A DNA stretch of 64,000 nucleotides from positions 50,054-114,053 of the forward strand of contig JAEUPJ010000028.1 in assembly GCA_016790285.1 (NCBI GenBank), written 5' to 3'. The notes beneath the pieces were generated by a model, which had not been told where the DNA came from, did not search any database, and worked only from the letters and a program-made list of their open reading frames with translations. The stretch comes from Roseateles sp. (GTDB lineage: Bacteria > Pseudomonadota > Gammaproteobacteria > Burkholderiales > Burkholderiaceae_C). The translations under genes were made by a program, and so were the position numbers. Position 1 is the stretch's first letter. Each line of letters starts with the position of its first letter. Below are positions 13,608-30,852 of the stretch, one piece after another.

Positions 13608-13609
13608 AG

Positions 13610-16426
13610 ATGTTCCACCTGCAATCGCTTGAACTGCTGCACTGGGACTACTGCCAGCGCGTGACGCTGCCGCTGGACGGCGCCATCATCACCATCGCCG
13701 GCCCCAACGGCTCGGGCAAGACCACGCTGCTGGACGCCATGCGCACGCTGCTGGGCCTGGAGTGCTCGGGCGGCCGCACCTACAAGACCTACGCCCGCCA
13801 CGCCAACGCCGAGACGGCCTGGCTGCGCGCCCTCGTGGACAACCGCCCGCGCTCGCGCCAGAACAGCAGCCGGCCCTTTGCGTCATCGCTGCTGTACGCC
13901 GACCAGGTCACGCTGGCCTGCCGCATCGAGCGCCACGGCGGCGACTGGGTGCGCCGCTACCTCATCGTCGACGGCGTGCATGAGATCGAGCAGCTCGCCG
14001 AGCGCGGCGAGCGCGACTGGCTGGGCATCGAGGCCTGGAAGAAGCGCCTGGAGGCCGCCGGCCTCACGCGCGCCATCGGCCGCGTGCTGGCGCTGGAGCA
14101 GGGGCAGACCGACCGCCTGTGCGAGCTCAGCCCCAAGGAGCTGCTGCGCCTCGTGTTCGAGGTGTTCGGCGACCAGGAAGTGCTGGATCGCTACGAGCAG
14201 GCCCGCAGCCACCAGCAGCATCTCGGCAAGGAGGTCGAGCAGGCCGCAGCCGAGCTGGCCCACACCCAGGCCCAGCTCAGCGACCTGGCCAACCGCGTCA
14301 ACAGCCACCGCCAGTACCAGCTCAAGGTCCAGGAGCGCGAGCGCCTGGCCACCGAGGTGCTGCCGGTGCTGCGCTGGAGCGAGGCCCGCGAGCGCATCGC
14401 CCGCGACGCGCGCGAGCTGCACCGCCAGCGCCTGTTCGCCTCGGGCGACGTGAAGGCGCTGAGCGAAAAGCGCGCGGCGCTGCATGGCCTCTTCACCGCC
14501 CAGGAGGCCGCCAAGGCACGGCTGAAGGCACTGGAGGGCGAGCGGCGCGAGGCGCGTGCGGCGTTCGACGCGGCGCGTGAGGCCGAGCGGCCGGCGGAGG
14601 CTCTCGTCAAGCGCGAGGACGAGCTGCGCGCGCTGGCCGACGTCGAGGCCGATGCCGCCGCGCTGACCGCCCGCATGCAGGAACTCGCCGCCGAGCGCGA
14701 CCGGCTGCGCGCCGACTACACCCGCGCCAGCGACAAGGCCTCGCGCGCCCAAGCCCAGCTCGGCGAGCTGAGCGGCAAGCGCCTGCCGCCGCCGCCACCC
14801 GAGGTCGCGCCGATGAAGCGCGCCCTGGACGACGCCGGCATCGCCCACTACCTGGTGGCCGACAGCATCGACATCGCCGACGAAACCTGGCGCGCCGCGG
14901 CCGAGGGCCTGCTGCGCCCGTCGCGCTGGGTCGTCGTGCTCAAGCACCGCAGCGACGAAGGCCGTGCCTTCGACATCGCGGCCAAGCAGCGCTACCGGCA
15001 CTACGTCGTCGCCGACACCTCGGCCGTGGGCCAGGCGCCTGCGGGCTCGCTGCTGGCCGCACTCAACGTCAGCGCCCCGCTGCCGACCTGGCTGGTGCGC
15101 CAGCTCGGCGCCATCCGCTGCGTGACCTCCACGGAGGAGGGCGCCAAGACAAGCGGCGAGTGGATCACGACCGATGCGTACTACCGCGACGGCCGCGGTG
15201 GCCGCAGCGTGTTCGTCGAGCCGCGCGACCACCAGTTCGGCGCTTCGGCGGTGGACTCCCGCCGCGCCGCGCTGGAGGCCGAGCTGGCCCGCTGGGACGG
15301 TGAGCTGAGCCGCATCGCCAAGGCCCAGGCCGAGGTGGAGCGCCAGTTCAAGGACGTGCAGCGCGCGGCGGTCGGCCACAAGGCGGCGCAGGAGCTGTCC
15401 GAGCGTGCCGATGAGTTCGCCGAGGCGCGCGTGCGGCTGCCCGTGCTGCGCCAGGCGCGGACCGAAGCCTCCACCCGCATGAGCCAGCTCGACGCCGAGC
15501 ACGAGCGCGTGGTGCGCGAGTCCACCCGCAGCGAGCAGGCCTATGAAGGCGCGCAGATCGCGCTGAAGGACGGCGAAGGCTCGGCGGCTGGCCGCCTGCG
15601 CGAGCACGAGTCCCGGCGCGAGGCGCTGCGCAAGGCCTCGCGCGAGAGCCGTGAGCAGAAGGCCCGCTTCCCCGCCGCCTGGGTCACGCCTGCGGCGCTG
15701 GCGGCCCTGCGCGAGGAGTTCGAGAGCGCCCGCCAGGCCGAGATCCGGGCCCACCACGTGGACCAGGAACTCGACGGTGGCCACTGGGAGGTCGACGCCA
15801 GCGTCGTGGAGCGCCATGCGCGCATGGCCGCGCAGGTGCACGAGCAGGACACCCAGCTCAGCGACCGCCGCGCGAGCAACGAGATGGCGCGCATCGCCGC
15901 CTTCAACGCCCGCGAGCGCTACATCGACGTGCTGCGCGCCACCGTGCGCCGCTACAAGAAGAACGTGGCCGAACTGGGCGAACTGGCCGGCACCACCGCC
16001 GAAGCCGTGCTGCCCCACCTCGACAACGACGACACCGTGCTCGCCCAGGCCGGGCTGCAGGTCAAGTTCAACTTCGACGGCAAGGGCGAGGTCGGCCTGA
16101 ACGACGGCGAGGCCTCGGGCGGCCAGCAGGTGCTCAAGAGCCTCATCCTGCTCGTGGGCCTCATGAAGGACGACGAGACGCCCGGCGGCTTCGTCTTCAT
16201 CGACGAGCCCTTTGCCCACCTGGACGTGCGCAACATCCAGCTCGTCGGCCATTTCCTGCGCTCCACGCGCGCGCAGTACCTGCTGACCACGCCGATCACG
16301 CACAACGTCGAGGTGTTCGAGCCCAGCGAGATCACGCTGGTGACGAGCAAGAAGCCGCGCGGCGAGCGCTGGGCGCCGCCGATCGCGGTGCTGGCGCGCC
16401 GCCCCGAAGTCTCGGCCTATGACTGA
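13610..16426 (+). CDS. mksB: MksB-like SMC ATPase
   Basis: This 938-residue condensin ATPase would extrude or clamp DNA for chromosome organisation or plasmid defence. Walker A is GPNGSGKTT at residues 31-39. Two long coiled-coil arms, at about 190-390 and 540-790, flank a globular hinge-like region at about 395-530. The signature motif SGGQQVLKSL is near 835, and Walker B GGFVFIDEPFAHLD near 860. The size is that of MksB, well below MukB at about 1,480. The conserved head-proximal QTDRLCELSPKELLRLVFEV follows the Walker A lobe. No MksG/JetD nuclease gene follows: the next gene is a thioesterase overlapping by 8 bp. SbcC is less likely given the two partner genes. Confidence 0.88.
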   Translation: MFHLQSLELLHWDYCQRVTLPLDGAIITIAGPNGSGKTTLLDAMRTLLGLECSGGRTYKTYARHANAETAWLRALVDNRPRSRQNSSRPFASSLLYADQVTLACRIERHGGDWVRRYLIVDGVHEIEQLAERGERDWLGIEAWKKRLEAAGLTRAIGRVLALEQGQTDRLCELSPKELLRLVFEVFGDQEVLDRYEQARSHQQHLGKEVEQAAAELAHTQAQLSDLANRVNSHRQYQLKVQERERLATEVLPVLRWSEARERIARDARELHRQRLFASGDVKALSEKRAALHGLFTAQEAAKARLKALEGERREARAAFDAAREAERPAEALVKREDELRALADVEADAAALTARMQELAAERDRLRADYTRASDKASRAQAQLGELSGKRLPPPPPEVAPMKRALDDAGIAHYLVADSIDIADETWRAAAEGLLRPSRWVVVLKHRSDEGRAFDIAAKQRYRHYVVADTSAVGQAPAGSLLAALNVSAPLPTWLVRQLGAIRCVTSTEEGAKTSGEWITTDAYYRDGRGGRSVFVEPRDHQFGASAVDSRRAALEAELARWDGELSRIAKAQAEVERQFKDVQRAAVGHKAAQELSERADEFAEARVRLPVLRQARTEASTRMSQLDAEHERVVRESTRSEQAYEGAQIALKDGEGSAAGRLREHESRREALRKASRESREQKARFPAAWVTPAALAALREEFESARQAEIRAHHVDQELDGGHWEVDASVVERHARMAAQVHEQDTQLSDRRASNEMARIAAFNARERYIDVLRATVRRYKKNVAELGELAGTTAEAVLPHLDNDDTVLAQAGLQVKFNFDGKGEVGLNDGEASGGQQVLKSLILLVGLMKDDETPGGFVFIDEPFAHLDVRNIQLVGHFLRSTRAQYLLTTPITHNVEVFEPSEITLVTSKKPRGERWAPPIAVLARRPEVSAYD

Positions 16427-16871: not shown

Positions 16872-17828
16872 ATGACCGCCACCCCGCCGCCGCTGGCCAC
16901 GCAGCGCGCCTTGCGCTTCGAGCGCGAGCAGGCGCCGCGGTTGCGCGCGCTGGCCTACCGGATGCTCGGCTCGCGCGCCGAGGCGCAGGACATCGTGCAG
17001 GACGCCTGGCTTCGCTGGGCCGAGGTGGACGAGCGCACCATCGAGGAGCCCGCTGCCTTCCTCACGCGTCTCGTGACCAACCTGTGCCTGGACCGGCTGC
17101 GCTCGGCCGCGGTGCAGCGCGAGCAGTACGTGGGCGTGTGGCTGCCCGAGCCGGTGCTGCAAGGCGAGGACGCCTGGGGTTGGGTGCCGGGGCCGGAAAG
17201 CCAGGCGGAGTTCGCCCAGGACCTGTCCGTCGCCTTCCTGCTGGCCCTGCAGCGCCTCTCGCCGCTGGAGCGCGCGGCCTTCCTGCTGCATGACGTGTTC
17301 GACCTGGGCTATGCGGAAGTCGCGCGGCACCTGGACCGCAGCGAGGCCAGCTGCCGCCAGCTCATCAGCCGCGCGCGCAAACATGTGAAGGCCGGCCACG
17401 CGCGGCACGAGGTGGCGCGGGAGGAGGGCGAGCGGCTCGTGGCCGCCTTCATGCAGGCCGTGCGCAGCCGCGACGTCACCGCGCTCGCGCAGATGCTGGC
17501 GGACGACGCCGTGATGATGGCCGACGGCGGCGGCAAGGTCAGCGCCGTGCCCCGGCCGCTCGCGGGGGGCATGGCCGTGGCGCGTGCCTTCATCGGTTTT
17601 GCGGGCATGCCGGCCAGCCGCGGTTGGCGGCTGGTGCCGGCTGTCGTCAACGGCCTGCCGGGGCTGCTCATCGTGGACGACCTCGCCGGCGGCCGCCTCG
17701 TGCAGACGCTGGCCCTCTCGCCGGCGGCCGAGCCCGGGCGCGTGGCGGCGCTCTACATCCAGCGCAACCCCGACAAGCTCGCGGCGCTCGCCGCCCATGT
17801 CACAAACGTGGTGGCTGATCCGTCATGA
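16872..17828 (+). CDS. ECF41-type RNA polymerase sigma factor (SigJ-like) with SnoaL-like C-terminal domain
   Basis: This 318-residue sigma factor has region 2 (LAYRMLGSRAEAQDIVQDAW), region 4 (LSPLERAAFLLHDVFDLGYAEVA, then SEASCRQLISRAR) and a fused C-terminal domain. The three group-defining motifs of ECF41 are all visible: WLPEP in the linker near residues 90-95, DGGGK near 217 and NPDKL near 298. ECF41 proteins have no anti-sigma factor; the C-terminal domain regulates activity. They are usually encoded next to a carboxymuconolactone decarboxylase, oxidoreductase or epimerase gene, and here a carboxymuconolactone decarboxylase-family gene follows. A promoter of the ECF41 type lies in the last codons of this gene. 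The inducing signal is unknown. Confidence 0.93.
   Translation: MTATPPPLATQRALRFEREQAPRLRALAYRMLGSRAEAQDIVQDAWLRWAEVDERTIEEPAAFLTRLVTNLCLDRLRSAAVQREQYVGVWLPEPVLQGEDAWGWVPGPESQAEFAQDLSVAFLLALQRLSPLERAAFLLHDVFDLGYAEVARHLDRSEASCRQLISRARKHVKAGHARHEVAREEGERLVAAFMQAVRSRDVTALAQMLADDAVMMADGGGKVSAVPRPLAGGMAVARAFIGFAGMPASRGWRLVPAVVNGLPGLLIVDDLAGGRLVQTLALSPAAEPGRVAALYIQRNPDKLAALAAHVTNVVADPS
17798..17824 (+). promoter_or_regulatory. ECF41-type promoter for the carboxymuconolactone decarboxylase-family gene
   Basis: TGTCACA at 17798-17804, a 16-bp spacer, and CGTC at 17821-17824 match the target motif I recall for ECF41 sigma factors. The element overlaps the last codons of the sigma gene and lies 51 bp before the downstream ATG. 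Transcription would start at about 17830. Confidence 0.7.
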
Positions 17829-17874: not shown

Positions 17875-18354
17875 ATGAGCACCGCGCAAGCCCGCCTCGA
17901 CTACAGCCGCCTGTCGGCCGACCTCTTCAAGAAATACCTCGACTTCAGCATGGCCTTCAAGATGGACGAAGGCCTGGCGTTGCTTGTGGACATCCGCGCC
18001 TCGCAGCTCAACGGCTGCGCCTTCTGCCTGGACATGCACGTCAAGCAGGCCCGCATCCACGGAGAGCGCGAGCTGCGCCTGCACCACGTGGCCATCTGGC
18101 GCGAGTCGACGCTGTTCACGCCGCGCGAGCGTGCCGCGCTCGCCTGGACAGAGGCGCTCACCCAGATCGGGCCGGACGGCATCTCGGACGCCGCCTACGC
18201 CCAGGCCCGCGAGGCGTTCGACGAAGCCGCGTTGTCGGAGCTGACCTTCCGTGTGGCGGCCATCAATGGATGGAACCGCCTGAACGTGGCGTTCCGCAAC
18301 GTGCCGGGTTCCAAGGACCGCCTGTTCGGCCTGGACAAGGCGGGGCTGAACTGA
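17875..18354 (+). CDS. carboxymuconolactone decarboxylase family protein (AhpD-like)
   Basis: The 159-residue protein carries the AhpD-type redox motif CAFCLDMH, a CxxC followed by His, in the helix after LVDIRASQLNG. LTPRERAALAWTEAL-like sequence (here LFTPRERAALAWTEALT) follows, then WNRLNVAFRNVPGS. Many members with this CxxCxxxH motif act as alkylhydroperoxidases rather than decarboxylases. It is the expected partner of the upstream ECF41 sigma factor, with a matching promoter 51 bp before the ATG. A role in oxidative or xenobiotic stress is inferred. The ATG at 17875 gives the usual start. Confidence 0.9.
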   Translation: MSTAQARLDYSRLSADLFKKYLDFSMAFKMDEGLALLVDIRASQLNGCAFCLDMHVKQARIHGERELRLHHVAIWRESTLFTPRERAALAWTEALTQIGPDGISDAAYAQAREAFDEAALSELTFRVAAINGWNRLNVAFRNVPGSKDRLFGLDKAGLN

Positions 18355-18360
18355 CCCGCC

Positions 18361-18735
18361 TCAGCGCAGCTCGCCGTCGATCCAGGCCCGCGCCTCGGGC
18401 AGGGTCGGGAAGACGCGGTAGGGCGCCTTGATGAAGCCGTGCCGCTGGAAGTCGGCGATGGCGGCGAGGATGTCGTCACGCTGCGCCACGGCCACGATGA
18501 GGATGCGCGGGTTCGTGAACAACGGCCCGATGTGCAGCGCCGCGATCTCTGTCGTGGACGCGGGTGTGGACTCGTAGGCCTGCACCTCGAGGTAGTTGGT
18601 CAGCGCGTAGCGGAGGTCGTCGAAGCGGCGGTCGCCGCTGATGAGCTCCAGCGATGCGCGCCGCTCGACGACGCTCACGTCGCCGAAGTAGTGCCGGTAG
18701 ACGCCGGCCCGTTCCCAGGTGATCTTGTATGGCAT
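18361..18735 (-). CDS. conserved protein of unknown function
   Basis: The protein has 124 residues and begins MPYKITWERAGVYRHYFGDV. I recognise it as a type of short conserved protein common in betaproteobacteria, with an alternating strand-helix pattern that resembles SpoIIAA/STAS-like folds (ALHIGPLFTNPRILIVAVA, and a C-terminal FPTLPEARAWID). No catalytic motif, signal peptide or membrane segment is visible. Translation from 18735 is preferred to an upstream extension to 18816, because the MPYKI start matches relatives I recall. It is convergent with the decarboxylase-family gene (6 bp apart) and divergent from the M28 peptidase. Confidence 0.7.
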   Translation of the reverse strand: MPYKITWERAGVYRHYFGDVSVVERRASLELISGDRRFDDLRYALTNYLEVQAYESTPASTTEIAALHIGPLFTNPRILIVAVAQRDDILAAIADFQRHGFIKAPYRVFPTLPEARAWIDGELR

Positions 18736-18886
18736 GGCCGCCGCCGTGAGAGGCTGCTGGACGCCGCGGATGATAGGAAGGACGCGTTGGCGCGCGCGTT
18801 GTGCCGGCGCTGCCATGGGGCGCGCGCGGGCCGTGCGTGATTTCCTTGGCGCTTAGGATGGGATCCCTTTTCAGCCCACCCATGCC

Positions 18887-20128
18887 ATGGCCCTCAAGAC
18901 CTCGTTTGCCATCCTGGCCCTGGCATGCGCTGCCGCCGCGGGCGCTCAGGAGGCGCCTGCCGCCGACCCCGTCGCGCGCCTGGTCAACCAGCTGGAGCTG
19001 GACCGCTACAAGGCCACCATCCAGGGGCTGACCCGCTTCGGCGACCGGCGCCAGGGCACGGCGCGCAACCGCGCGGCCCTGGACTGGATCGAGGCCCAGC
19101 TCAAGAGCTACGGCTGCACGAACACCGAGCGGGTGCAGTACGAATTCACCGAGCCCGCGCGGCGCGGCCCCGTGCAACTGCAGCCGCTGCGCGCGGCAGG
19201 CCCGGCCGCGCAGGGCGGCGGCACGCTCTTCGGCCGGCGCGCGCCCATCGGCGTGAACACCGACCCCATGGCCCAGCCCGACGAGCGGCTGCGCGCGCTC
19301 AATGCCGAGGCCACACCGCTGGGTACCGGGCCACGCGAGAGCCTGTACTGCACCAAGGTCGGCAGCACCCACCCCGACGAGATGTACATCGTCTCCGCCC
19401 ACATGGACGGCATCGGCTTCGGCGAGGCCGCCAACGACGACGGCTCCGGCACGGCGCTGGTGATGGAGCTCGCGCGCATCTTTCATCAGCCGGGCGTGAC
19501 CACGGAGCGTTCCATCCGGTTCATCCTCTGGAACAACGAGGAGACGGGCCTCAACGGTGCCTACGCCTACGTGGCGCAGCGCAAGGAGTTGCAGGGCGTC
19601 GAGTCGCCCAAGGGCTCGGGCCGCTACCCCGAGCCACGGTGGCTGGGCATGATCCAGCACGACATGCTGCTGTTCGACCACGGCATGCCGGTGCCCAAGC
19701 TCGACGCCGCCGGCAAGCCGGTGCTCGACGCGCGCGGCCAGCCGGTCTACGTGGCGCCCAGGGAGCAGCGCGCGGAGGCGGACGTGAACATCGAGTTCCA
19801 GGTCAATTCGAAGTTCGCCGACGGATCGGCGCGCCTGGCGTGGGCCCTGCGCGCCGCCAATGAGAAGTACGCCACCGACTACCCCGCGGCCGTGGGCAAC
19901 CGCATGACGAACACCGACTCCACGCCCTTCATGGACCTGGTGCCCGCCATCTCGGTGCGCGAGAACGAGCGCGGCATGCAGATCGGCGCCGGCTGGAACC
20001 CGCATTGGCATCAGCCCACCGATCTGTTCGCCAGCTACTCCGACAAGGACTTCCTGCTCGGGCTCAACGCCGCGCAGACCACGCTGGCGGCCGTCGCGCA
20101 ATTGGCGGGCGTAATGCTCAAACCCTGA
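18887..20128 (+). CDS. exported M28 family zinc aminopeptidase
   Basis: The protein has 413 residues with a signal peptide (MALKTSFAILALACAAAAGAQ). The M28 metal-binding and catalytic residues are present in order: His in SAHMDG, Asp in ANDDGSGTA, the Glu pair in NNEETGLNG, a later Asp in TNTDSTPFMD and His in HWHQPTD. It should release N-terminal amino acids or act on peptides in the periplasm or outside the cell. A central insert (residues about 240-300) lengthens the fold. The start ATG at 18887 fits the signal peptide. A 7-bp hairpin with a UUCG loop and short T-run lies about 180 bp downstream. Confidence 0.92.
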   Translation: MALKTSFAILALACAAAAGAQEAPAADPVARLVNQLELDRYKATIQGLTRFGDRRQGTARNRAALDWIEAQLKSYGCTNTERVQYEFTEPARRGPVQLQPLRAAGPAAQGGGTLFGRRAPIGVNTDPMAQPDERLRALNAEATPLGTGPRESLYCTKVGSTHPDEMYIVSAHMDGIGFGEAANDDGSGTALVMELARIFHQPGVTTERSIRFILWNNEETGLNGAYAYVAQRKELQGVESPKGSGRYPEPRWLGMIQHDMLLFDHGMPVPKLDAAGKPVLDARGQPVYVAPREQRAEADVNIEFQVNSKFADGSARLAWALRAANEKYATDYPAAVGNRMTNTDSTPFMDLVPAISVRENERGMQIGAGWNPHWHQPTDLFASYSDKDFLLGLNAAQTTLAAVAQLAGVMLKP

Positions 20129-20397
20129 CCCCATCGCCCGCATTCGCGGGGATGTGCAAATGTTGCAGACGGATACAGTTGCGGCCATAGCGCGGCATGC
20201 AAACGCATTCATGCGCTGACACAAGATGTCGCGGGGCCAGGCCGGCTCCAGCGTGCACGCAGGGGGGAGCATGGGTCGTGGCGACATCGGAACGCGCGGC
20301 CTGAGGACGTCCACTTCGGTGGACGCGTTTTGACCCCGATGCCGTGCTGACCCAACCGTTGCGAGGTGCCCCTGCGGGCGCCTGGCTACGCCGCTGC
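20129..20397 (+). other. intergenic leader before the TPP/citrate-synthase/P450 operon
   Basis: This stretch separates the M28 peptidase from the four-gene operon. Its first part is AT-richer than its surroundings. I see no convincing -35/-10 pair and no coding frame that I trust. The open frame that continues upstream of 20398 could add up to 18 residues to the TPP enzyme. The only clear structure is the UUCG hairpin at 20308-20331. Confidence 0.5.
20308..20331 (+). terminator. UUCG-loop hairpin with short T-run
   Basis: CGTCCAC (20308-20314) pairs with GTGGACG (20319-20325) around a TTCG tetraloop, and TTTT follows at 20328-20331. It could terminate the M28 peptidase transcript or act as an attenuator in the leader of the next operon. 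Confidence 0.45.
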
Positions 20398-22266
20398 ATG
20401 GCGTCTTTCGCTGCCTGCAACGTGGAATCAAATACTGCACTCGCCCCTTTCTACAACGGGGCTGACGACATCTCGCGCGAACCCACCGTGCGTGACGCTG
20501 CTGATCTGCTGGTCGACGCACTTGCCGCGCTCGGCGTGGAGTACGTCTTCGGCGTGCCCGGTGGTGCCATCGAGCCGCTGTACAACGCCCTGGCGCGCAG
20601 CGCCCGGCGCGGCGGCCCGCAGGCCGTGGTGGCCCGCAACGAGCAGGGCGCGGCCTACATGGCCGACGGCTACGCCCGCGAGACGGGGCGCCTGGGCGTC
20701 TGCATCGCGACCTCCGGCCCCGGTGCCACCAACCTCATCACGGGCGTGGCCTGCGCGTACGACAACAACGTGCCCATGCTCGTCATCACGGGCCAGCCGC
20801 CCATCAAAAACTTCGGCAAGGGCGCGCTGCAGGAGTCCAGCTGCACGGGCATCAACACGATGGCGATGTTCCGCCCCTGCACGCGCTACAACTCGCTGGT
20901 CTCGCATGCCGAGCAGCTGCCCACCAAGCTGTTCAATGCATTGATGCAGGCGCAGCGTGCACCCAGCGGCCCGGCCCACCTCTCCATCCCCGTGGACATC
21001 CTGCGCCAGCCGCTGCCGGCCGACCAGGACCTGCCCGACTTCGCCGGCCTGCTGCGCCGCTCGCCCGCGCTCGTGGACCTGCCCGCCGTTCGCCAGCTCG
21101 CGCGTCTGCTCTTCTCGGCACGCCAGCCGGTCTGGCTGATCGGCGACGGCTGCTCTGAAGCCGCAGCCGACCTCATGCAGCTCGTGCAGCGCACCGACGG
21201 CACCTTCATCACCACGCCGGACGGCAAGGGCTTCGTGAACCCGCGCCACCCGCGTTTCCGCGGCGTGTTCGGCTTCGGCGGCCATGCCTGCGCGGCGGAG
21301 CTGCTGCAGGGCGAGCCTGACCTCGTCATCGCGCTGGGTACGGGCTTCGGCGAGTTCAACAGCGGTGGCTGGTCCAGCGCGCTGCTCAACAGCCGGCTCG
21401 TGCACGTGGACGACAGCGACGAGAACCTCATGCGCTCGCCCATGGCGCGGCTGCATGTGCGCGGCCACATCAAGTCGGTGTGTGAGCAACTGGTGGCGCT
21501 GCTGGCACCGTCCAATGGCGGTGCCGATGCCGCCGTGCTGCCCTTCCTGCACCCGCAGATGGCCCGCCACAGCTACGAGGCCATGGTGGACAGCCCCAAG
21601 GCGCTCTACCGCGAAGGCGGCCCCGTCAAGCCGCAGCGGCTCGTGGCGACGCTGGGCGAACGCTGCCCGCCGCAGACCCGCTTCGTGGCCGACGCCGGCA
21701 ACAGCGCCGCCTGGGCCGTGCACTACCTGGCTCCCAACGACCAGCGTGCCGGCCGCATGCCGGGCGGCGCCTACCTGCCCGCCGGCAAGGAGCGGCGTTC
21801 GCGCAACTCCAGCTGGCTGCGCGTCACCATGGACTTCGCCCCCATGGGCTGGGCCATCGGCTCGGCCGTGGGCATTGCCATGGCCAACCGCCGCTGCCCG
21901 GTCGTGTGCATGACGGGCGACGGCAGCTACCTGATGAACGGCCAGGAGATCACCGTCGCCGCCGAGCTGGGCCTGCCGGTGCTGTACGTCGTGCTCAATG
22001 ACGGCGCGCTGGGCATGGTCAAGCATGGCCAGCGCCTGGCGGGTGCCGAGCCCATCGGTTTTCAGCTGCCCAAGGTGGACTTCGCCGCCATGGCCGAGTC
22101 CATGGGCATCCCGGGCATCGTCGTGCGCACGGCCGAGGAGCTCGACGCGATCGACTTCCCCGCGTTGCTGTCCCGCGGCGGCCCGACGCTGCTGGACGTG
22201 CGCATCGACGGCGAGGAAGTGCCGCCGATGAACCTGCGCATGAAGACGCTGGGCACGGCGCGATGA
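20398..22266 (+). CDS. acetolactate-synthase-like thiamine-diphosphate enzyme
   Basis: From 20398 the protein has 622 residues. It shows the three-domain fold of ALS/pyruvate oxidase-type enzymes. The cofactor-activating Glu is in ARNEQGAAYMADGYAR near residue 81, followed by TSGPGATN. The TPP motif runs from GDGSYLMNGQE near 506 to LNDGALGMVKHGQ. It therefore looks catalytically complete and would decarboxylate a 2-oxo acid and transfer the acyl unit. It lacks an adjacent small regulatory subunit, and its neighbours are two citrate-synthase-like genes and a P450. That argues for a dedicated pathway rather than branched-chain amino acid synthesis. The start is uncertain: 20344 or 20398. The stop overlaps the next gene by 4 bp. 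Confidence 0.85.
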   Translation: MASFAACNVESNTALAPFYNGADDISREPTVRDAADLLVDALAALGVEYVFGVPGGAIEPLYNALARSARRGGPQAVVARNEQGAAYMADGYARETGRLGVCIATSGPGATNLITGVACAYDNNVPMLVITGQPPIKNFGKGALQESSCTGINTMAMFRPCTRYNSLVSHAEQLPTKLFNALMQAQRAPSGPAHLSIPVDILRQPLPADQDLPDFAGLLRRSPALVDLPAVRQLARLLFSARQPVWLIGDGCSEAAADLMQLVQRTDGTFITTPDGKGFVNPRHPRFRGVFGFGGHACAAELLQGEPDLVIALGTGFGEFNSGGWSSALLNSRLVHVDDSDENLMRSPMARLHVRGHIKSVCEQLVALLAPSNGGADAAVLPFLHPQMARHSYEAMVDSPKALYREGGPVKPQRLVATLGERCPPQTRFVADAGNSAAWAVHYLAPNDQRAGRMPGGAYLPAGKERRSRNSSWLRVTMDFAPMGWAIGSAVGIAMANRRCPVVCMTGDGSYLMNGQEITVAAELGLPVLYVVLNDGALGMVKHGQRLAGAEPIGFQLPKVDFAAMAESMGIPGIVVRTAEELDAIDFPALLSRGGPTLLDVRIDGEEVPPMNLRMKTLGTAR

Positions 22267-23066
22267 GCGACGCCGCGCTTCGAGAGCGCGTGCACACGCG
22301 CATCTGGCACGAGTCGCCCGAGCCGGACAACGATTTCGCAGCCGCCACCGTGCTGTGCCATGGCTATGACGTCTACGGCGACATGCTCGGGCAGGCGCGC
22401 TGGGTGGAGATGCTCTTCCTGCTGCTGCGCGGCGAGGCGCCATCGGCGCGCCAGGCTGCGCTGCTGGAGGCCCTGGCGCTCGCGCTGGCCAACCCCGGCC
22501 CGCGCGACGCCGCCGTGCATGCGGCGATGTGCGCCGGCGTGGGCGGCTCGACCGCGGCGTCGGCCCTGATCGCCGCGCTGTCGGTGGGTGCCGGGCGCAG
22601 CGGTGGCGCACGCGACGTGTGGGCCGCGATGCAGGCCTTCGAGGCCTGTGGCCGCAGCCCGTCGGCCTGGGAGCGTGCGCTGGCCGCGGCGCCCGCGGAG
22701 CCGGCCGGCATCTGGCCCGCCGCCGAGCACCCGCCGGGCTTCGAGGCGCACGCCGCGCGCAGCAGCGGCATCGTGCGGCGCACGCTGGCGGTGCTGGCGC
22801 CCTTGAGCGACGGCCACTGCCTGCCTTGGCTGCACGCCAGCCGCGAGCCCCTGGAGCAAGCGGCCAGGCGGGGCCTGGCCATGACGGGCGTGGCGGCGGC
22901 GGCGCTGGTCGACCTGGGCTTCAGCCCCGCGCAGGGCGAGATGCTGCATCTGCTGCTGCGCCTGCCGGGTGCTGCGGCGCATGCACTGGAGCAGGCGGCG
23001 CAAGGGCACAAGCAGTTCCCGTTCTTTGCGCTGAACCTGCAGGACGACCCGGGGGTGCCGGCATGA
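22263..23066 (+). CDS. citrate-synthase / citryl-CoA-lyase-like protein, first of a pair
   Basis: This 267-residue protein has the small citrate-synthase fold. WVEMLFLLLRGEAPS is the usual early helix. The core helices NPGPRDAAVHAAMCAGVGGS and GAGRSGGARDV follow, then a C-terminal RLPGAAAHALEQ. In citrate synthases the core loop reads H-G-G-A with a catalytic His; here the position is Ser in RSGGA. The later R...H...E pattern is kept. I see no equivalent of the catalytic Asp. It is translationally coupled to both neighbours (ATGA overlaps). A heteromer with the next gene product is an attractive inference. The reaction is unknown. Confidence 0.78.
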   Translation: MSDAALRERVHTRIWHESPEPDNDFAAATVLCHGYDVYGDMLGQARWVEMLFLLLRGEAPSARQAALLEALALALANPGPRDAAVHAAMCAGVGGSTAASALIAALSVGAGRSGGARDVWAAMQAFEACGRSPSAWERALAAAPAEPAGIWPAAEHPPGFEAHAARSSGIVRRTLAVLAPLSDGHCLPWLHASREPLEQAARRGLAMTGVAAAALVDLGFSPAQGEMLHLLLRLPGAAAHALEQAAQGHKQFPFFALNLQDDPGVPA

Positions 23067-23869
23067 AGGGCCCTCAAGCCTGGCTGGACCAGCTGGATGG
23101 CATGTCGACCCGCATGGGCCAGGCCTTCGTGGGCACGCGCGCCGTGTTCCGCGGTCAGGACCTGCATGCCGAGCTGCGCCACATGGACTGGATGGCGCTG
23201 TACGTGCTGGGCATCACCGGCCGTCACCATGACGACGCGCAGGTGCGCCTGCTGCACGCACTCTGGGTCTGCACCAGCTACCCCGACGCCCGCATCTGGA
23301 ACAACCGCACGGCCGCGCTCGCCGGCTCGGCGCGCAGCACGCCCGCGCTGGGCATTGCCGCCGCGCTGGCCATGTCCGAGGCGACGATCTACGGCGGCCA
23401 TCCCTACGTCAGCAGCATCGGCTTCTTCATCCGCGCCCGCGCGCATGAAGAGGGCGGTGGCGAGCTGCCCGCCTTTGTCGAGGCCGAGCTGGCGCGGGGG
23501 CGCATCTATGGCTACGGCCGGCCCATCGCCTGCATCGACGAGCGACTGCCCTGGGTGCTGGGCATCGCCCGCGAGCTCGCGCTCGACGGCGGGCCCCACC
23601 TGCGCATCGCGCTCGCGGTCGAGGCGCTGCTCGTCGCGCGCAGCCCCAAGCTGCGCATGAACTACGCGGCGCTGATGTCGGCCCTGTGCGCCGACCTCGG
23701 CTTCTCGGTCGACGAGATGCACCACTTCCAGGTGCCGGTCTTCATGGCCGGCATGTCTCCCTGCTTCATCGAGGCTGCGCAACGCCCGTCTGGCGCCGTG
23801 TTCCCGATGACCTGCGCCCACATCGCCTACGAAGGCCCGGCACCCCGCCGCTGGCCGACCCAACGCTGA
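23063..23869 (+). CDS. citrate-synthase / citryl-CoA-lyase-like protein, second of a pair
   Basis: The 268-residue protein is a diverged paralogue of the gene before it. AGSARSTPALGIAAALAMSEATIYGGHPY corresponds to the core helices and loop; the residue run is split here as AGSARSTPALGIAAALAM and SEATIYGGHPY. The C-terminal region that should read R-x-x-G-...-H-...-E instead gives FMAGMSPCFIEA, so the conserved Arg and His are gone. The catalytic Asp segment is replaced by PKLRMNYAAL. It has a distinct C-terminal tail ending EGPAPRRWPTQR. It overlaps the first CS-like gene by 4 bp, and the P450 starts 5 bp after it. It may be a non-catalytic partner subunit or have a new activity. Confidence 0.75.
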   Translation: MKGPQAWLDQLDGMSTRMGQAFVGTRAVFRGQDLHAELRHMDWMALYVLGITGRHHDDAQVRLLHALWVCTSYPDARIWNNRTAALAGSARSTPALGIAAALAMSEATIYGGHPYVSSIGFFIRARAHEEGGGELPAFVEAELARGRIYGYGRPIACIDERLPWVLGIARELALDGGPHLRIALAVEALLVARSPKLRMNYAALMSALCADLGFSVDEMHHFQVPVFMAGMSPCFIEAAQRPSGAVFPMTCAHIAYEGPAPRRWPTQR

Positions 23870-23874
23870 ACATC

Positions 23875-25023
23875 ATGACGACTCCTGACCCCTACCTGCA
23901 CTACGCCCACATGCGCGCGACCGCGCCCGTGCACTTCAACGACACCCTGAACGTCTGGGAGGTCTACGGCTACCACGACATCCAGACGGTGCTGGGCGAC
24001 GCGAAGACCTTCTCGTCCGACCTGTCGGACGGCAAGATGATGGTCTTCATGGACCCGCCGCGGCACACGCAGTTCCGCCGCCTGGTGGCCCGCGCCTTCA
24101 CGAGCAAGGTCATCGCCGACCTGGAGCCCAGCGTGCAGGCCATCACCGAGTCGCTGCTGGACCGCGTCGCGCAGACCGGCCGCATGGACCTCGTCACGGA
24201 CCTGGCCTTCCCGCTGCCGGTGACCGTCATCGCCGAGCTGCTGGGCCTGCCCGCGGCCGACCACGACAAGTTCAAGCAGTGGTCCATCCCGGCCATCCGC
24301 GCGGCGGAGATGGAGCTCATGGGCCTGACGCCCGAGCCGGCCTTCGTGGCCGCCGTCGACGAGCTCGATGCCTACCTCGCCCAGCTCATCGCGGCGCGCC
24401 GCGACGCGCCCACGGGCGACCTGGTCAGTGCGTTGCTGGCCGCCGAGGTCGACGGCGAGCGCCTCACGCTGCTGGAAGTGGCCAGCACCTGCCGGCTGCT
24501 GCTGATCGCAGGCTTCGAGACCACGACCAACCTCATCGGCAACACCCTGCAGCTGCTGCTCGCCCACCCCGCGGCCATGGCGCAGCTCGAGGCCGACCCC
24601 GAGCTGCTGCCGCAGGCCATCGAGGAGGCGCTGCGCTTCAACACGCCGTTCCAGTTCTTCGCCCGCCGCGCCACGCGCGATGTCGAGCTCGGCGGCCACC
24701 TGATCCGGGCCGGCCAGCAGGTCATGACCTTCAATGCCTCGGGCAACCGCGACGAAGCCGCCTTCCCGCACGCCGACACCTTCGACATCACGCGCAGCGT
24801 GAACCGGCACCTGAGCTTCGGGCACGGCATCCACTACTGCCTGGGCGCCGGCCTCGGCCGGCTGGAGGCGCGCGTGGCGATCGCCACGCTGCTGCGCCGC
24901 TTCAGTGGCCTGCGCCCGGATGCCGCGCGCGCCGCGCAGCCCCTGTCCTCGGTCGTGCTGTTCGGTTTCAGCAGCCTGCCGGTGACGTTCTCAGAGGCGG
25001 TAGATGAGCTGTGCGTAGAGTGA
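23875..25023 (+). CDS. cytochrome P450
   Basis: This is a 382-residue soluble bacterial P450. It has the I-helix LLIAGFETTTN (oxygen-activating Glu-Thr), the K-helix EEALRF, and the heme-binding loop FGHGIHYCLGAGLGRLEAR with the ligand Cys at residue 322. PRHTQFRRLVARAF in the C-helix region is also typical. No ferredoxin or reductase gene is adjacent, so electrons must come from general partners. As the last gene of the TPP/CS/CS operon it probably hydroxylates or oxidises the product of those enzymes. Its 3' end overlaps the convergent TonB receptor gene by 33 bp. The ATG at 23875 is 5 bp after the previous stop. Confidence 0.94.
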   Translation: MTTPDPYLHYAHMRATAPVHFNDTLNVWEVYGYHDIQTVLGDAKTFSSDLSDGKMMVFMDPPRHTQFRRLVARAFTSKVIADLEPSVQAITESLLDRVAQTGRMDLVTDLAFPLPVTVIAELLGLPAADHDKFKQWSIPAIRAAEMELMGLTPEPAFVAAVDELDAYLAQLIAARRDAPTGDLVSALLAAEVDGERLTLLEVASTCRLLLIAGFETTTNLIGNTLQLLLAHPAAMAQLEADPELLPQAIEEALRFNTPFQFFARRATRDVELGGHLIRAGQQVMTFNASGNRDEAAFPHADTFDITRSVNRHLSFGHGIHYCLGAGLGRLEARVAIATLLRRFSGLRPDAARAAQPLSSVVLFGFSSLPVTFSEAVDELCVE

Positions 25024-27102
25024 ACGGCGCGCCAGCGGGATGTCGTTCGGCAGCGCCGTGCCCGGGGCCAGGCTCGGCTCGCGGGCGTCGGCGTTGAAGA
25101 GGTTGCGCACCGACAGCGCGACATCCCAGCCGGCCTTGCCGCCGGCCGTGCGCAGCGTGAGGTCGGCGGTCGTGTAGTCAGCGATCGGCGGCCGCGCGTC
25201 GCCCGTGGCCCGGTGGCGCTGGCCGACGTGGTTGACCTGGCCGCTGAGCAGCCAACCGTTGCTGAAACTCCAGTCGGCCCGCGCGTTGAAGTGGCGCCGC
25301 GGCGCGTAGCCCGCGTCGGTGCCGGTCATGTCCTCGATGGACCGCTGCAGCGCCAGGTTCCCCGCCAGGCGCAGCTTGCGCGTGACGTCCCACAAGGCCT
25401 CCAGTTCCACGCCGCTGCCGTGCTGCGCGCCCACGTTGTTGAACTGCGCCGTGCCGCCGCCGGCGTCGGTCGTGCGGATGATGTCCTTCATGTCGTAGCG
25501 GAACAGGCTCAGGTTGAGCTGTGCGTCCGCGCGCGCCTGCCAGGAGAAGGCGGTTTCCCAGGTGCTGATCGTCTCCGGCTTGAGCGCGGCGTTGCCGCGG
25601 ATGACCGGGTTGTTGATGCTGTACTGCTCGGTGAACGCCGGTGCGCGGAAGGCGCGCCCGTACAGCAGCTTCACGGTGAGGTCGAGGTTGGCGTCCCACA
25701 CCAGCGCCGCACGCGGGTTGGTGGTGGCACCGAAGTCGGAGTAGCGGTCCTGGCGCAGGCCGGCGGTCAGTGTCCAGTCCTTGGCGAGCAGCCACTCGTC
25801 CTGCACGTACACATAGTTCACGGTGCGGCGATGCGGCTCGGAGAAGGAGGCCGCGGCGGGGAACTCCTGCAGGTCGCCTGTGGGCGTGGGCACGGGCAGC
25901 CCGACGGCCGGGCCGCTGGGAATGATGGTGAAGTTCTTGAGCTCGCGCGTGCGGTACATGTCCAGGTCGTCATGCCCGATGCCCACGCGCAGGTTGTGCC
26001 CCTTGATGCCGGCGTAGGAGGCCACGGCGGCCAGGCGCAGCTGGTGCTCCCAGGTGCTCGGCGCGCCCAGCATGCCCTTGGGGAAGCTGCCGCCAAAGGC
26101 GCCCGGCGGGAACAGCTGCAGCGGCACGTTGAAGGTCTGCGTGTAGTGCAGGAAGCTTGCGGTCAGTGCACCGCGCCAGTCGGCGCCCAGCTCGATGTCG
26201 GTCCAGGCCAGGTCTGAAGTGACCCGCTCGATGCGGTAGCGGCCCACGGGGTCCAGCGCCCCGGCGACGCCCGCACCCGTTTGCAGGTCGTCGCGCAGCT
26301 TGTAGCTTGCACGCAGGCGGAGCTTCTCCCGGCTGACCTCGACGTTGGCGTCCAGCGCCTTGAAGCCGGTGTTCATGCGGCCGGGTGCCAGGCTCGCCTT
26401 GGTGCCGAAGACGCCATCCAGCAGCGTCTGCTGGTCGGCGGTGACGATCTCTCGCTGCCCGTCGGTCTCGCCCACGCGCACATAGGCGGCGACGTCGTAG
26501 CGGCCGAGGCTGCCGCCGTACTGCCACCAGCCGTCGCGGCTCTTGAAGGAGCCCAGGCGCGCACCGAGCTCCACGCCGTCGATATCGGCCCGGGTCTTGG
26601 TGATGACGTTGATGACCCCGGAGAAGGCGTCGGCCCCGTAGAGCGCCGAGCCCGGGCCGCGGATGATCTCGATGCGGGCGATGTTCTCCACCGGCATGTC
26701 GCCCCAGCCAAGGCCCCGGTTGCCGACGAACAGCGTCGTCAGCGGCACGCCGTTGAGCAGCATCAGCGTCTGCGCGTTGAACTCGCTGTGGATGCCGCGG
26801 ATCAGGTACAGCGGTGTGTTGGTGTTGTTGCTGCGGCTCACGTGGATGCCGGGCACGCTCTCGAGCACCTCGTCGATGCCGGTGGCGCCCATGGCCGCGA
26901 TGTCCTGTGCCGTGATGACGGTCGCGACTGCCGGCGCGCGGCGCAGGGCCTGCGGCGCGCCCGTCGCGATGGAGACAGTGCTCTTGTCGCCGTAGACCTG
27001 GGCCAGTTCCTCTTCCTCGCTCGCGGGCTGCGCCAGGGCTGCCGGCTGCCATACGGCCAGCCATGCGCCGCCCAGGATGGCCAAGCCGAAGAAAGGTCTC
27101 AT
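24991..27102 (-). CDS. TonB-dependent outer membrane receptor
   Basis: The protein has 703 residues from the ATG at 27102, which gives a signal peptide (MRPFFGLAILGGAWLAVW ending near ALAQ). A plug domain follows, with APAVATVITAQDIAAMGATG, VPGIHVSR and IEIIRGPGSALYGADAFSG. The 22-strand barrel ends in ...SLYAQLIYRL. The last residues are hydrophobic, as required for BamA recognition, though Leu replaces the usual Phe. It would import an iron chelate, vitamin B12 or another large ligand with TonB/ExbBD energy. It is divergent from a periplasmic-binding protein and a histidine kinase, which suggests a sensing or uptake unit. I find no clear Fur box. Confidence 0.9.
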   Translation of the reverse strand: MRPFFGLAILGGAWLAVWQPAALAQPASEEEELAQVYGDKSTVSIATGAPQALRRAPAVATVITAQDIAAMGATGIDEVLESVPGIHVSRSNNTNTPLYLIRGIHSEFNAQTLMLLNGVPLTTLFVGNRGLGWGDMPVENIARIEIIRGPGSALYGADAFSGVINVITKTRADIDGVELGARLGSFKSRDGWWQYGGSLGRYDVAAYVRVGETDGQREIVTADQQTLLDGVFGTKASLAPGRMNTGFKALDANVEVSREKLRLRASYKLRDDLQTGAGVAGALDPVGRYRIERVTSDLAWTDIELGADWRGALTASFLHYTQTFNVPLQLFPPGAFGGSFPKGMLGAPSTWEHQLRLAAVASYAGIKGHNLRVGIGHDDLDMYRTRELKNFTIIPSGPAVGLPVPTPTGDLQEFPAAASFSEPHRRTVNYVYVQDEWLLAKDWTLTAGLRQDRYSDFGATTNPRAALVWDANLDLTVKLLYGRAFRAPAFTEQYSINNPVIRGNAALKPETISTWETAFSWQARADAQLNLSLFRYDMKDIIRTTDAGGGTAQFNNVGAQHGSGVELEALWDVTRKLRLAGNLALQRSIEDMTGTDAGYAPRRHFNARADWSFSNGWLLSGQVNHVGQRHRATGDARPPIADYTTADLTLRTAGGKAGWDVALSVRNLFNADAREPSLAPGTALPNDIPLARRSLYAQLIYRL

Positions 27103-27275
27103 GTGCTGGGGCTCCGAGGTGGGGAGTGATGGCCGCCTATTGTGGGGGTATCCCAGGCGTGCGCGAACCTCGCGCGCACGACTGTTGTGCGTTCGTGAAC
27201 TCCGCCCGCACGACCTTGGGGTGGCGGGAAGCCCGCCGGAGGGCGTCTGCATAATGCGCCACTCCACGCACTGCG

Positions 27276-28271
27276 TTGCAACGTCCCGATCCCAACTTGG
27301 TCACCACTGGTCGCTCCTGCCATGCCACGCGCCGCGCGCTGCTGCGTCAGGCCGTCGGCGGCATGGCCGCGCTGGCGGCCGCGGAGGCGGCAGCGGCAGA
27401 GCCCGGGCGGTCCATCGCGGTCGTCTACCCGGAGCTCGGCGAGCCCTTCAAGCAGATCTTCGCCGCCATCATCGACGGCATCGAGGAGCGCCTGCGGGTG
27501 AATGTCGTGAGCCTTGCCGTGACCTCGGCGGCCACGCCTGCCGAAGTCGGCGAAGACCTGCGCCGGCGTGACGTCAAGGTGCTCATCGGGCTGGGCCGCG
27601 GCGGCATGCGCATTGCCGCGGCGCTGTCTGCCGAGCTGGCCGTGCTCGTGGGGTGCGTGGTGTCGGTGCAGGAGACCGAGGCGCGGGCCTTCCCCGTGCA
27701 CACGCTGGCGCCCGACCCGGCGCTGCTGCTGTCGCGCCTGAAGCGGCTCATGCCCGGAGCGCGCCGCGTGCACCTCGTCTACGACCCCAAGCTCAATGGC
27801 TGGCTGGTGCGCCTGGCACGCGAGGCGGCCCGCACCGAAGGCCTGGAGCTGGTGGCCCAGGAAGCGCACGACCAGAGCGGCGCGCTGCGCCTGTACTCGC
27901 AACTGCTCGCCTCGGCCGACCCGGTGCGCGACGCGCTGTGGCTGCCGCAAGACCCGACGACGGTGGACGACAACGTCGTGCTTTCGCTGGTGCTGAAGGA
28001 CGGCTGGAACCGCTCCATCGCGGTGTTTTCGAGCCATCTCGCCCACGTCAAGCGCGGGGCGCTGTTTTCGCTGTACCCCGACAACGCGGAACTCGGTCGC
28101 AGCCTCGCGGCTTCGGCGCTGCGGCTGGTCGGCAACCCGCGGGCGCTGGGCGCCGGCGTGAGCCCGCTGCGCGACACGCGCGCGGCCATCAATGTGCGCA
28201 CGGCGGCCCACCTGGGCATGGACGTCGCTGCGGCGCAGACCGGGTTCGACCTGGTCTACCCGAACAGCTGA
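27276..28271 (+). CDS. ABC-transporter substrate-binding-like protein (COG2984 type)
   Basis: The protein has 331-332 residues from a TTG at 27276; an in-frame TTG at 27297 is also possible. An N-terminal twin-Arg-containing segment (RRALLRQAVGGMAALAAAEA) looks like a signal peptide. The body matches the ABC_sub_bind family: a Rossmann-like repeat with VVYPELGEPFKQIF, VKVLIGLGRGG, LVYDPKLNGWLVR and VFSSHLAHVKRGALFSLYP. No ABC permease or ATPase is nearby. It is followed after 9 bp by a membrane histidine kinase, so it may act as the periplasmic sensor for that kinase rather than in transport. This is inferred from the arrangement. Confidence 0.8.
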   Translation: MQRPDPNLVTTGRSCHATRRALLRQAVGGMAALAAAEAAAAEPGRSIAVVYPELGEPFKQIFAAIIDGIEERLRVNVVSLAVTSAATPAEVGEDLRRRDVKVLIGLGRGGMRIAAALSAELAVLVGCVVSVQETEARAFPVHTLAPDPALLLSRLKRLMPGARRVHLVYDPKLNGWLVRLAREAARTEGLELVAQEAHDQSGALRLYSQLLASADPVRDALWLPQDPTTVDDNVVLSLVLKDGWNRSIAVFSSHLAHVKRGALFSLYPDNAELGRSLAASALRLVGNPRALGAGVSPLRDTRAAINVRTAAHLGMDVAAAQTGFDLVYPNS

Positions 28272-28280
28272 GGAGAGCCT

Positions 28281-29936
28281 GTGACGTCCCGCCCACCCCT
28301 GGCCCGTTCGACCGCTGCAGCGTCGCTGCCCGCGGCCGAGCGCGTGCAGGCGCCCTCGGGCCCGTGGCTGCAGCGCCTGCTGCCGCGCTATTTCCGTGAC
28401 GCGTCATTCCGGCGCCAGCTCAGCGTGGGTGTCGCACTCGGCGCCCTGTGCCTGGCGTTGATGATGGCCGCCGTGAACGCCTGGCAGGGCGGCCGGCAGG
28501 TGCGGGCCATGCTCATGGAGCAGGGCGGGCGCGTGGCCACCAACCTGGCGTCCAACAGCTCGCTGGCCCTGCTGTACGCCGCCGCCGACAACGCCGAGGA
28601 AGCCGTGCGCGCGTCGCTGGCCTTCCCGGACGTGATGGCCATCGAGATTCGCGACACCCGCGGTCACCTGCTGCTGGCCCTCGGCCCCGAAGGCAAGTCG
28701 CGCCCGGTGGAGGCCGCGCCGCCGGCCCAGGCCGCCAGCGAAGCCTGGCTCGACCAGGAAACCGACGACAGCTGGTCGTTCTCCGCGCCCGTCTGGACGC
28801 GCCCCGAGCCATCGCCGTTCGATGTGACGCTGCGCCCGGCGCAGCTGCTCGGGCATGTGCGCGTGGTGCAGAGCAAGGCCACGCTGCACCGCACGCAGAC
28901 GTCGCTGTTCGTCGCCAATTTCGGCATGGCGCTGCTGTTCTCGCTGCTCTTCCTCGTGTCCGTGCGTTATCTCGCGCTGCGGCTGACGCGTCCGCTGGCG
29001 GCGCTGTCCGACGCCATGGAGCGCGTGGAGCGTGGCGAGGGCGACGCGAGAGCCCCGGCCGGCGGGCCGCGGGACATCGAGGCGATGGCGCACACCTTTA
29101 ACCGCATGATCGCGGCCCTGCAGGAGCGCGAGGCCGAACTGGCCGCCCACCGGGACCACCTCGAGGACCTGGTGCAGGAGCGCACGCTGGAGCTCAGCGA
29201 CGCCAAGGAGCGCGCCGAGGTGGCCAGCCGCGCCAAGAGCCAGTTCCTCGCGCGCATGAGCCACGAGCTGCGCACGCCGCTGAATGCGGTCATGGGCTAT
29301 GCCCAGATCCTGAAGATGGACGAGGCGCTGACTGCCAAGCAGCGCAGCGGCCTGGACATCATCCACAGCAGCGGCCAGCACCTGCTGACGCTGATCGTCG
29401 ACATCCTGGACCTGTCCCGCATCGAGGCCGGCAAGGCCGAGCTGCGCATCGCGCCGCTGGAGCTGGTGCCGCGCCTGCAGGCCGTCATCGACATCGTGCG
29501 GGTGATGGCCGAGGGCAAGCAGATCGGCCTGCAGCTCGAGCTCGGCGTCGGCCTGCCGGCCGTGGTGCAGGCCGACGAGAAGCGGCTGAACCAGATCCTG
29601 CTGAACCTGCTGGGCAATGCGGTCAAGTTCACGCACGTGGGCGGCGTGACCTTGCGCGTGCAGCGCGTGACGCCGGCCGACGTGGAGCCCGGCCATGTGA
29701 TGCTGCGCTTCGAGGTGCAGGACACCGGCGTGGGCATCGCGGAGGACCAGGCCGTGCGCCTGTTCGAGCCTTTCGAGCAGGCCGGCAGCGCCGAGCAGCG
29801 CGTCGGCGGCACGGGCCTGGGCCTGGCCATCAGCCGCCAGCTGGTGCGGATGATGGGCGGCGAGATCCGGCTGGAGAGCCGCCTGGCGCAGGGCAGCCGG
29901 TTCTGGTTCGAGATCAGCGTGCCGACCGCGGGCTGA
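28281..29936 (+). CDS. membrane sensor histidine kinase with HAMP domain
   Basis: The protein has 551 residues from a GTG with AGGAGA upstream. A membrane helix near residues 45-67 is followed by a periplasmic domain with MLMEQGGRVATNLASNSSLA, similar to CHASE8-type sensors. A second membrane helix lies near 211-232, then HAMP, a coiled coil, the H-box SHELRTPLNAVMGYAQIL, the N-box NQILLNLLGNAVKFT, G1 DTGVGIAED and G2 GGTGLGLAIS. There is no receiver domain and no response-regulator gene next to it. It is probably co-transcribed with the preceding periplasmic-binding protein. The partner regulator is unknown. Confidence 0.92.
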   Translation: MTSRPPLARSTAAASLPAAERVQAPSGPWLQRLLPRYFRDASFRRQLSVGVALGALCLALMMAAVNAWQGGRQVRAMLMEQGGRVATNLASNSSLALLYAAADNAEEAVRASLAFPDVMAIEIRDTRGHLLLALGPEGKSRPVEAAPPAQAASEAWLDQETDDSWSFSAPVWTRPEPSPFDVTLRPAQLLGHVRVVQSKATLHRTQTSLFVANFGMALLFSLLFLVSVRYLALRLTRPLAALSDAMERVERGEGDARAPAGGPRDIEAMAHTFNRMIAALQEREAELAAHRDHLEDLVQERTLELSDAKERAEVASRAKSQFLARMSHELRTPLNAVMGYAQILKMDEALTAKQRSGLDIIHSSGQHLLTLIVDILDLSRIEAGKAELRIAPLELVPRLQAVIDIVRVMAEGKQIGLQLELGVGLPAVVQADEKRLNQILLNLLGNAVKFTHVGGVTLRVQRVTPADVEPGHVMLRFEVQDTGVGIAEDQAVRLFEPFEQAGSAEQRVGGTGLGLAISRQLVRMMGGEIRLESRLAQGSRFWFEISVPTAG

Positions 29937-29957
29937 GCCGCGGCGCGGCGGGGGCGG

Positions 29958-30368: not shown

Positions 30369-30407
30369 GGGGTGTCTCCGTGTCGGGTCAGGTCCATGGC
30401 GGGCAGT

Positions 30408-30851
<444 letters not shown>

Positions 30852-30852
30852 G

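Follow-up and report, generated by a model that had tools for sequence, protein, structure and literature searches.

In the LuxP/LuxQ (autoinducer-2) and TorT/TorS systems a small-molecule ligand is read by a periplasmic binding protein and a membrane histidine kinase, and in FecA-FecR-FecI cell-surface signalling a TonB receptor is tied to signalling. ScyA and NzsH are described in PMC9822442 as related thiamine pyrophosphate (TPP)-dependent carboligases acting on indole-3-pyruvate, which ScyA joins with a second 2-oxo acid. The DNA analysed here, 64,000 nt from a Roseateles sp. (assembly GCA_016790285.1, contig JAEUPJ010000028.1, positions 50,054 to 114,053 of the forward strand; henceforth the window), carries a gene for a TPP-dependent enzyme followed by genes for a pair of proteins, CS1 and CS2, that are predicted to adopt the fold of citryl-CoA lyase. 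Across related loci these are accompanied by genes for a TonB-dependent outer-membrane receptor, a substrate-binding protein of family PF04392 and a membrane sensor histidine kinase. The window may hold one version of a cassette for making, importing and sensing a molecule derived from the TPP enzyme, a proposal drawn from sequence to which we give an even chance.

The TPP enzyme is of the acetolactate-synthase/ScyA kind (20398..22266, + strand, start codon inferred; Pfam TPP_enzyme_N/M/C). It is followed on the same strand by CS1 (22263..23066; Foldseek and NCBIfam matches, no Pfam match), CS2 (23063..23869; Pfam Citrate_synt, Foldseek) and an accessory cytochrome P450 (23875..25023; Pfam p450). 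There is a 4-nt overlap (ATGA) between the TPP and CS1 genes and another 4-nt overlap between CS1 and CS2, and the gap from CS2 to the P450 is 5 nt. The TonB receptor is encoded on the opposite strand (24991..27102, start inferred), and then come, on the + strand, the periplasmic binding protein (27276..28271; Pfam ABC_sub_bind, start uncertain) and the kinase (28281..29936; Pfam HAMP-HisKA-HATPase). An earlier note on the window had described the first four genes as tightly packed, which is confirmed, overlaps and gap included. It had also taken those four as the functional unit, and this is ruled out by the occurrence of the P450 in just 7 of 64 loci. The conserved partners are the TonB receptor, the PF04392 binding protein and the sensor kinase, and the natural unit is not the four genes.

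The 64 loci comprise 47 from a CS2 scan of genome contigs, 16 further stretches and the window (L067 being omitted as a duplicate of L020), all mapped with profiles of eight families. Their record names include Roseateles, Pelomonas, Aquabacterium, Leptothrix, Gallionella, Sideroxydans, Sulfuricella, Dechloromonas, Geobacter, Pelotalea and others; many come from metagenome-assembled genomes (MAGs), so the names need care. CS1 and CS2 are found in all 64, the TPP enzyme in 61 (the misses, L006, L040 and L041, all lie at contig starts), the TonB receptor in 53, the binding protein in 41, the sensor half of the kinase in 39 and a short-chain dehydrogenase/reductase (SDR) in 18, weak generic matches in L081 and L083 included. 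Where at least 6.5 kb is available on either side (43 loci) the corresponding numbers are 43 for TPP, CS1 and CS2 alike, 39 for TonB, 33 for the binding protein, 32 for the kinase sensor half, 11 for SDR and 4 for the P450. The counts are taken from the profile map, as the crude gene caller yields antisense genes, and since near relatives are common among the loci they are not independent. With the receptor present in so many loci, the statement of the earlier note that it gives no clue to the product is wrong.

The TPP enzyme, CS1, CS2, receptor, binding protein and kinase occur all together in 36 of the 64 loci, in shuffled orders; that in L076-L079 is TonB-CS1-CS2-TPP-binding protein-kinase. 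As scored by script, CS1 and CS2 are same-strand neighbours in 62 loci, and the two genes are also adjacent in L035 and L044, both missed by the midpoint rule of the script. Conservation of the gene order in other genomes had been set beforehand as a test, and TPP-CS1-CS2-P450 recurs in L002, L003 and L004, and in L020 with an SDR gene inserted. The suggestion that a small-molecule gene set is conserved here, and is apparently not yet described, is supported; no description of the set was recognized in the literature, with most subscription journals outside the coverage. In L033 (5320-12570), from a Pseudomonadales genome, TPP-CS1-CS2 are present as two tandem copies, which could possibly lead to two different products. 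L020 contains a second cassette-type TPP gene downstream (13097-15091), without its own CS pair in the locus.

CS2 is sparsely distributed: within the family to which the window belongs its profile matches 9 of 299 genomes, and within the phylum 10 of 398 (the window's genome, with one CS2 match, is counted in both); plasmid relatives amount to a single weak match at 29% identity. The binding protein is present in 15 of the 299 family genomes, including all nine with CS2 (hypergeometric 1e-13), and in 15 of the 398 phylum genomes, including six of the ten with CS2 (2e-7), both values uncorrected for kinship. The genome searches scored up to 7 or 8 candidates per genome for the family and 5 or 6 for the phylum, with different E limits for CS2 and for the binding protein. 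PF04392 was found in 13 of 13 binding proteins scanned, from 21 collected. The kinase adjoins the binding protein in 39 of the 41 loci having the latter, and in three CS2-bearing family genomes (L106-L108) the two lie away from the synthase genes. The receiving genes also occur in genomes without CS2. The kinase adjoins the binding protein in all six such family genomes (L100-L105), with a TonB gene in five of the six, and of nine such phylum genomes the seven examined (L124-L130) all have adjoining TonB and kinase genes. In one of the genomes with CS2 a different contig (L109; G241:C6) carries a second set of binding protein, kinase and TonB genes, with no adjoining synthase genes.

The sensor type is exchanged in some of the synthase loci. 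The four CS2-bearing phylum genomes that lack the binding protein (L080-L083), and likewise a Fibrobacteres MAG (L026), have a large kinase protein, which in L026, L080, L081 and L083 has Ser/Thr kinase, AAA, GAF and histidine-kinase-type ATPase domains and in L082 is truncated at the end of the contig, with a start of the same kind. None of the five has a TonB gene of the cassette family. A LuxR-type response regulator follows the large protein in L083, and similar genes are found in L080 and L081. There is a dCache kinase in L005, a YfiR-kinase with a GGDEF-EAL protein in L033, and REC-GGDEF proteins in L008 and L009. Domains detected in 18 signalling proteins scanned are HAMP+HisKA+HATPase (13), receiver (11), GGDEF (9) and EAL (9). 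The TPP-CS1-CS2 triad lies near FkbH and MaoC-SDR genes in L083 and near acyl carrier protein (ACP) and AMP-ligase genes in L082, surroundings that by sequence have the look of a biosynthetic setting. The cluster of L080-L083 is thus based on the triad too, and is richer and of another kind. Alignment A1 contains 13 of 21 proteins and A2 18 of 34, hand-chosen; A5 has 23 of 29 rows and omits L015 (whose row has a stop codon), L020, L023, L031, the second L033 copy and L043.

Covariation between the proteins was evaluated as a partial correlation (r) after removal of rpoB, mirror-tree values without rpoB overstating the effect. Thirty of 36 genomes sought gave rpoB, the window's own giving none, and 22 near genomes form a subset of these. 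For the TPP enzyme, r in the 30 genomes is 0.64 with the binding protein, 0.67 with the TonB receptor and 0.38 with the kinase; the near-genome values are 0.73, 0.46 and 0.78. The values for CS1 and CS2 with the binding protein are 0.06 and 0.07 in the 30, and 0.44 for each in the near genomes. Where the TPP and binding-protein genes are not neighbours, TPP-binding protein r is 0.52 (18 genomes) or 0.56 (15 near) and TPP-kinase r is 0.74 or 0.84. CS1 and CS2 with the binding protein give -0.09 and -0.12 in the same 18 genomes, and 0.31 and 0.26 in the 15. Since the covariation persists in these genomes, physical linkage is not its whole cause. The values are suggestive, the distances not being independent of each other, of a binding protein that tracks the TPP enzyme and not CS1-CS2, which would be expected were the ligand set by the TPP enzyme.

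The TPP enzyme retains the catalytic Glu for thiamine diphosphate (ThDP) and the GDG...N motif, with E82, G507, D508, G509 and N534 kept in 58 of 61 loci (3 gaps). The best 25 of its 54 NCBIfam matches each fall below the model's cut-off. The equivalog for biosynthetic acetolactate synthase scores 303.9 of 538.35 bits, and an ordinary acetolactate synthase is ruled out by these cut-offs. The nearest solved structures are BbmA and CsmA. BbmA (PDB 8x3x) is the closest at 313 bits, and scores higher (475 bits) with the Pelotalea cassette enzyme of L012; no paper on BbmA was recognized within the same literature coverage. In BbmA entry 8xod a Gly replaced by Phe aligns with window G544, a residue present in 57 of 61 loci (3 gaps). 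G544 also falls where we presume the acceptor-limiting Trp of acetolactate synthase to be (W464 of acetohydroxyacid synthase (AHAS) II). Both positions suggest a roomy acceptor site in the TPP enzyme. ScyA and NzsH are likewise AHAS-like TPP enzymes, and a ScyA-related model matches the window enzyme at 239 bits, far short of the 1000 and 1020 bits set as cut-offs for ScyA. For NzsH the partner is reportedly a second 2-oxo acid.

CS2 matches Pfam Citrate_synt at 27.2 bits, barely over the cut-off of 27.0. The best NCBIfam citryl-CoA lyase scores are 53.5 of 261 bits for CS1 and 41.2 of 193 for CS2, both under the cut-offs; these models match 29 of 29 CS1 proteins scanned, the window copy far under its cut-off. 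The earlier note had called both proteins diverged relatives of citrate synthase, and the predicted fold bears this out: for each model the first Foldseek match is the citryl-CoA lyase 6hxp (CS2, E 2.7e-07, TM 0.55; CS1, E 3.6e-07, TM 0.64), the models being of moderate quality with mean pLDDT of 67.7 for CS2 and 75.8 for CS1. CS1 resembles CS2 with an hhalign probability of 95.4%. Compared with 6hxp, CS2 lacks the His of GYGH and the Asp of NVDG, which we take to be the catalytic positions, and has Tyr in place of the His of HGGA; neither that His of HGGA nor the Asp of NVDG is present in CS1. CS1 H156 aligns near the GYGH His and may substitute for it, and is kept in 51 of 64 loci only. A true citryl-CoA lyase is ruled out by the NCBIfam cut-offs together with these residues. 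Twelve CS2 residues are invariant in the 64 loci (P74, D75, R77, W79, G111, G150, R153, P154, R161, N200, D211 and Y256), with C234 kept in 60 and C251 in 61. Replacement of the canonical residues by other conserved ones speaks for an active site that works and is different, in what is probably a CS1-CS2 heteromer. The ordinary condensation or cleavage by citrate-synthase relatives that had been proposed earlier is weakened by the replacement of most of the canonical catalytic residues.

In the proposed cassette the TPP enzyme would join a decarboxylated 2-oxo acid to an acceptor, giving an acyloin-type product, and the CS1-CS2 pair, with its probably rebuilt active site, would convert this further. 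An SDR or a P450 may modify the product in some lineages, the P450 of the window being a local modification. The product would leave the cell and be brought into the periplasm by the TonB receptor, where it would bind the orphan PF04392 protein, and the membrane kinase would report this, in many loci by way of receiver, GGDEF and EAL domains. Several observations weigh against this reading. In the phylum sample the genomes with the receptor alone (9) outnumber those with both receptor and synthase (6), so the ligand of the receptor may be something else. The TonB receptor follows CS1 (0.72) above TPP (0.46) in the near group and the kinase follows CS1 (0.53) above TPP (0.38) in all 30 genomes, and TPP-kinase r is only 0.07 in the 12 genomes where the TPP and binding-protein genes are neighbours. 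It is also unusual for a small signal to enter by a TonB channel. As a raw count, signalling genes are present in 48 of 64 loci (39 + 5 + 4). The rest are mostly short contigs, or have the binding protein and kinase elsewhere (L020, L068 and L070), and in L010, L044 and L072, whose flanks are long, the profiles used detected no kinase in the vicinity. A bolder form of the proposal is a new class of cell-cell signalling, in which a ThDP carboligase and a rebuilt CS heteromer make a signal that is imported and read by the TonB receptor, binding protein and kinase, with the synthase genes combined with two or more unrelated types of sensor, receivers that lack the synthase, and a CS1-CS2 reaction not known for the fold; this we hold only tentatively, and are inclined to doubt.

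The same genes could be those of a metallophore system, with TPP-CS1-CS2 making a small chelator resembling an α-hydroxy acid, the TonB receptor taking up this chelator with its metal, and uptake being regulated by the binding protein and kinase. The frequency of the receptor (53 of 64 loci) agrees with this. The best 25 of its 32 NCBIfam matches include siderophore and B12 receptors, all below cut-off (the siderophore receptor model TIGR01783 at 141.9 of 223.5 bits), receptor-only loci would be piracy, and several of the record genera are reportedly iron- or metal-cycling. We consider it unlikely, given that of 18 signalling proteins scanned 9 have GGDEF and EAL outputs and that five loci (L026, L080-L083) are without a cassette-type TonB gene. 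Moreover, no transporter or ABC permease was recognized among the recurring neighbour families of L001-L048, with crude gene calling and the rest of the genomes not searched. That no inner-membrane transporter was recognized among these neighbours also counts against a catabolic operon, in which the TonB receptor would import a substrate, the binding protein and kinase would sense it, and the TPP enzyme, CS1, CS2, SDR and P450 would degrade it. A layout combining import, a sensor and enzymes is common for catabolic genes, TPP lyases and citryl-CoA lyase are able to cleave C-C bonds, and an SDR and a P450 would fit as accessory enzymes. Receptor-only loci, cyclic di-GMP outputs on the signalling proteins and the setting of the triad in L082 and L083 all point the other way, and we judge a catabolic role to be improbable to a similar degree.

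A further explanation separates the loci into two modules, TPP-CS1-CS2 and TonB-binding protein-kinase, which have unrelated ligands and lie in the same loci solely so as to be regulated or transferred jointly. It would account for the genomes that have the binding protein and no CS2 (6 of 299 and 9 of 398), for synthase genes found with other sensors and for the three genomes with the binding protein and kinase elsewhere. It does not sit easily with the presence of the binding protein in all nine CS2 family genomes, nor with TPP-binding protein covariation beyond rpoB even when the genes are not neighbours, and it appears very unlikely.

The non-coding DNA 5′ of the TPP gene (20129-20397) contains blocks conserved in an alignment of five Roseateles-group loci (20138..20180, + strand), which are possible promoter or regulator sites. 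The two blocks occur once each in the window, a count no higher than chance, and a motif common to the TPP and receptor promoters is ruled out by the single occurrence of each. No known RNA was found by Rfam at gathering scores in window positions 18000-31000. An M28 peptidase gene lies upstream of the operon (18887-20128) and recurs only in L003, L004 and L037, as judged from crude genes in L001-L048. A gene for a SigJ-type sigma factor (NCBIfam) is located ∼2.6 kb upstream (16872-17828). The non-cassette neighbour families scanned gave a subtilase, a class-III aminotransferase, a cytochrome c and a TetR protein, with some small, antisense-looking neighbour clusters left out of the scan.

If the proposed cassette is real, the known families of bacterial signalling would gain both a signal chemistry and a layout that combines synthesis, import and sensing, and the binding protein could be used directly to fish out the ligand. 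Whatever the product, CS1 and CS2 present an active site not yet explored on a fold of central metabolism. CS1 and CS2 share fold and length with citryl-CoA lyase (6hxp) and the citrate synthases, and differ from them in the replaced catalytic residues and in having two unlike copies side by side. The similarity to FecA-FecR-FecI lies in the receptor; that of the window has solely the Plug and barrel families (Pfam), with no extra N-terminal signalling domain, and a kinase and binding protein take the place of the sigma and anti-sigma factors. The likeness to LuxP/LuxQ and TorT/TorS is in the combination of periplasmic binding protein and membrane histidine kinase. The NCBIfam cut-offs for LuxQ and TorS are not reached (239.4 of 1200 and 297.3 of 676.5 bits), and the window differs from both systems in having a PF04392 binding protein and in its linkage to a TonB receptor and to TPP-CS1-CS2.

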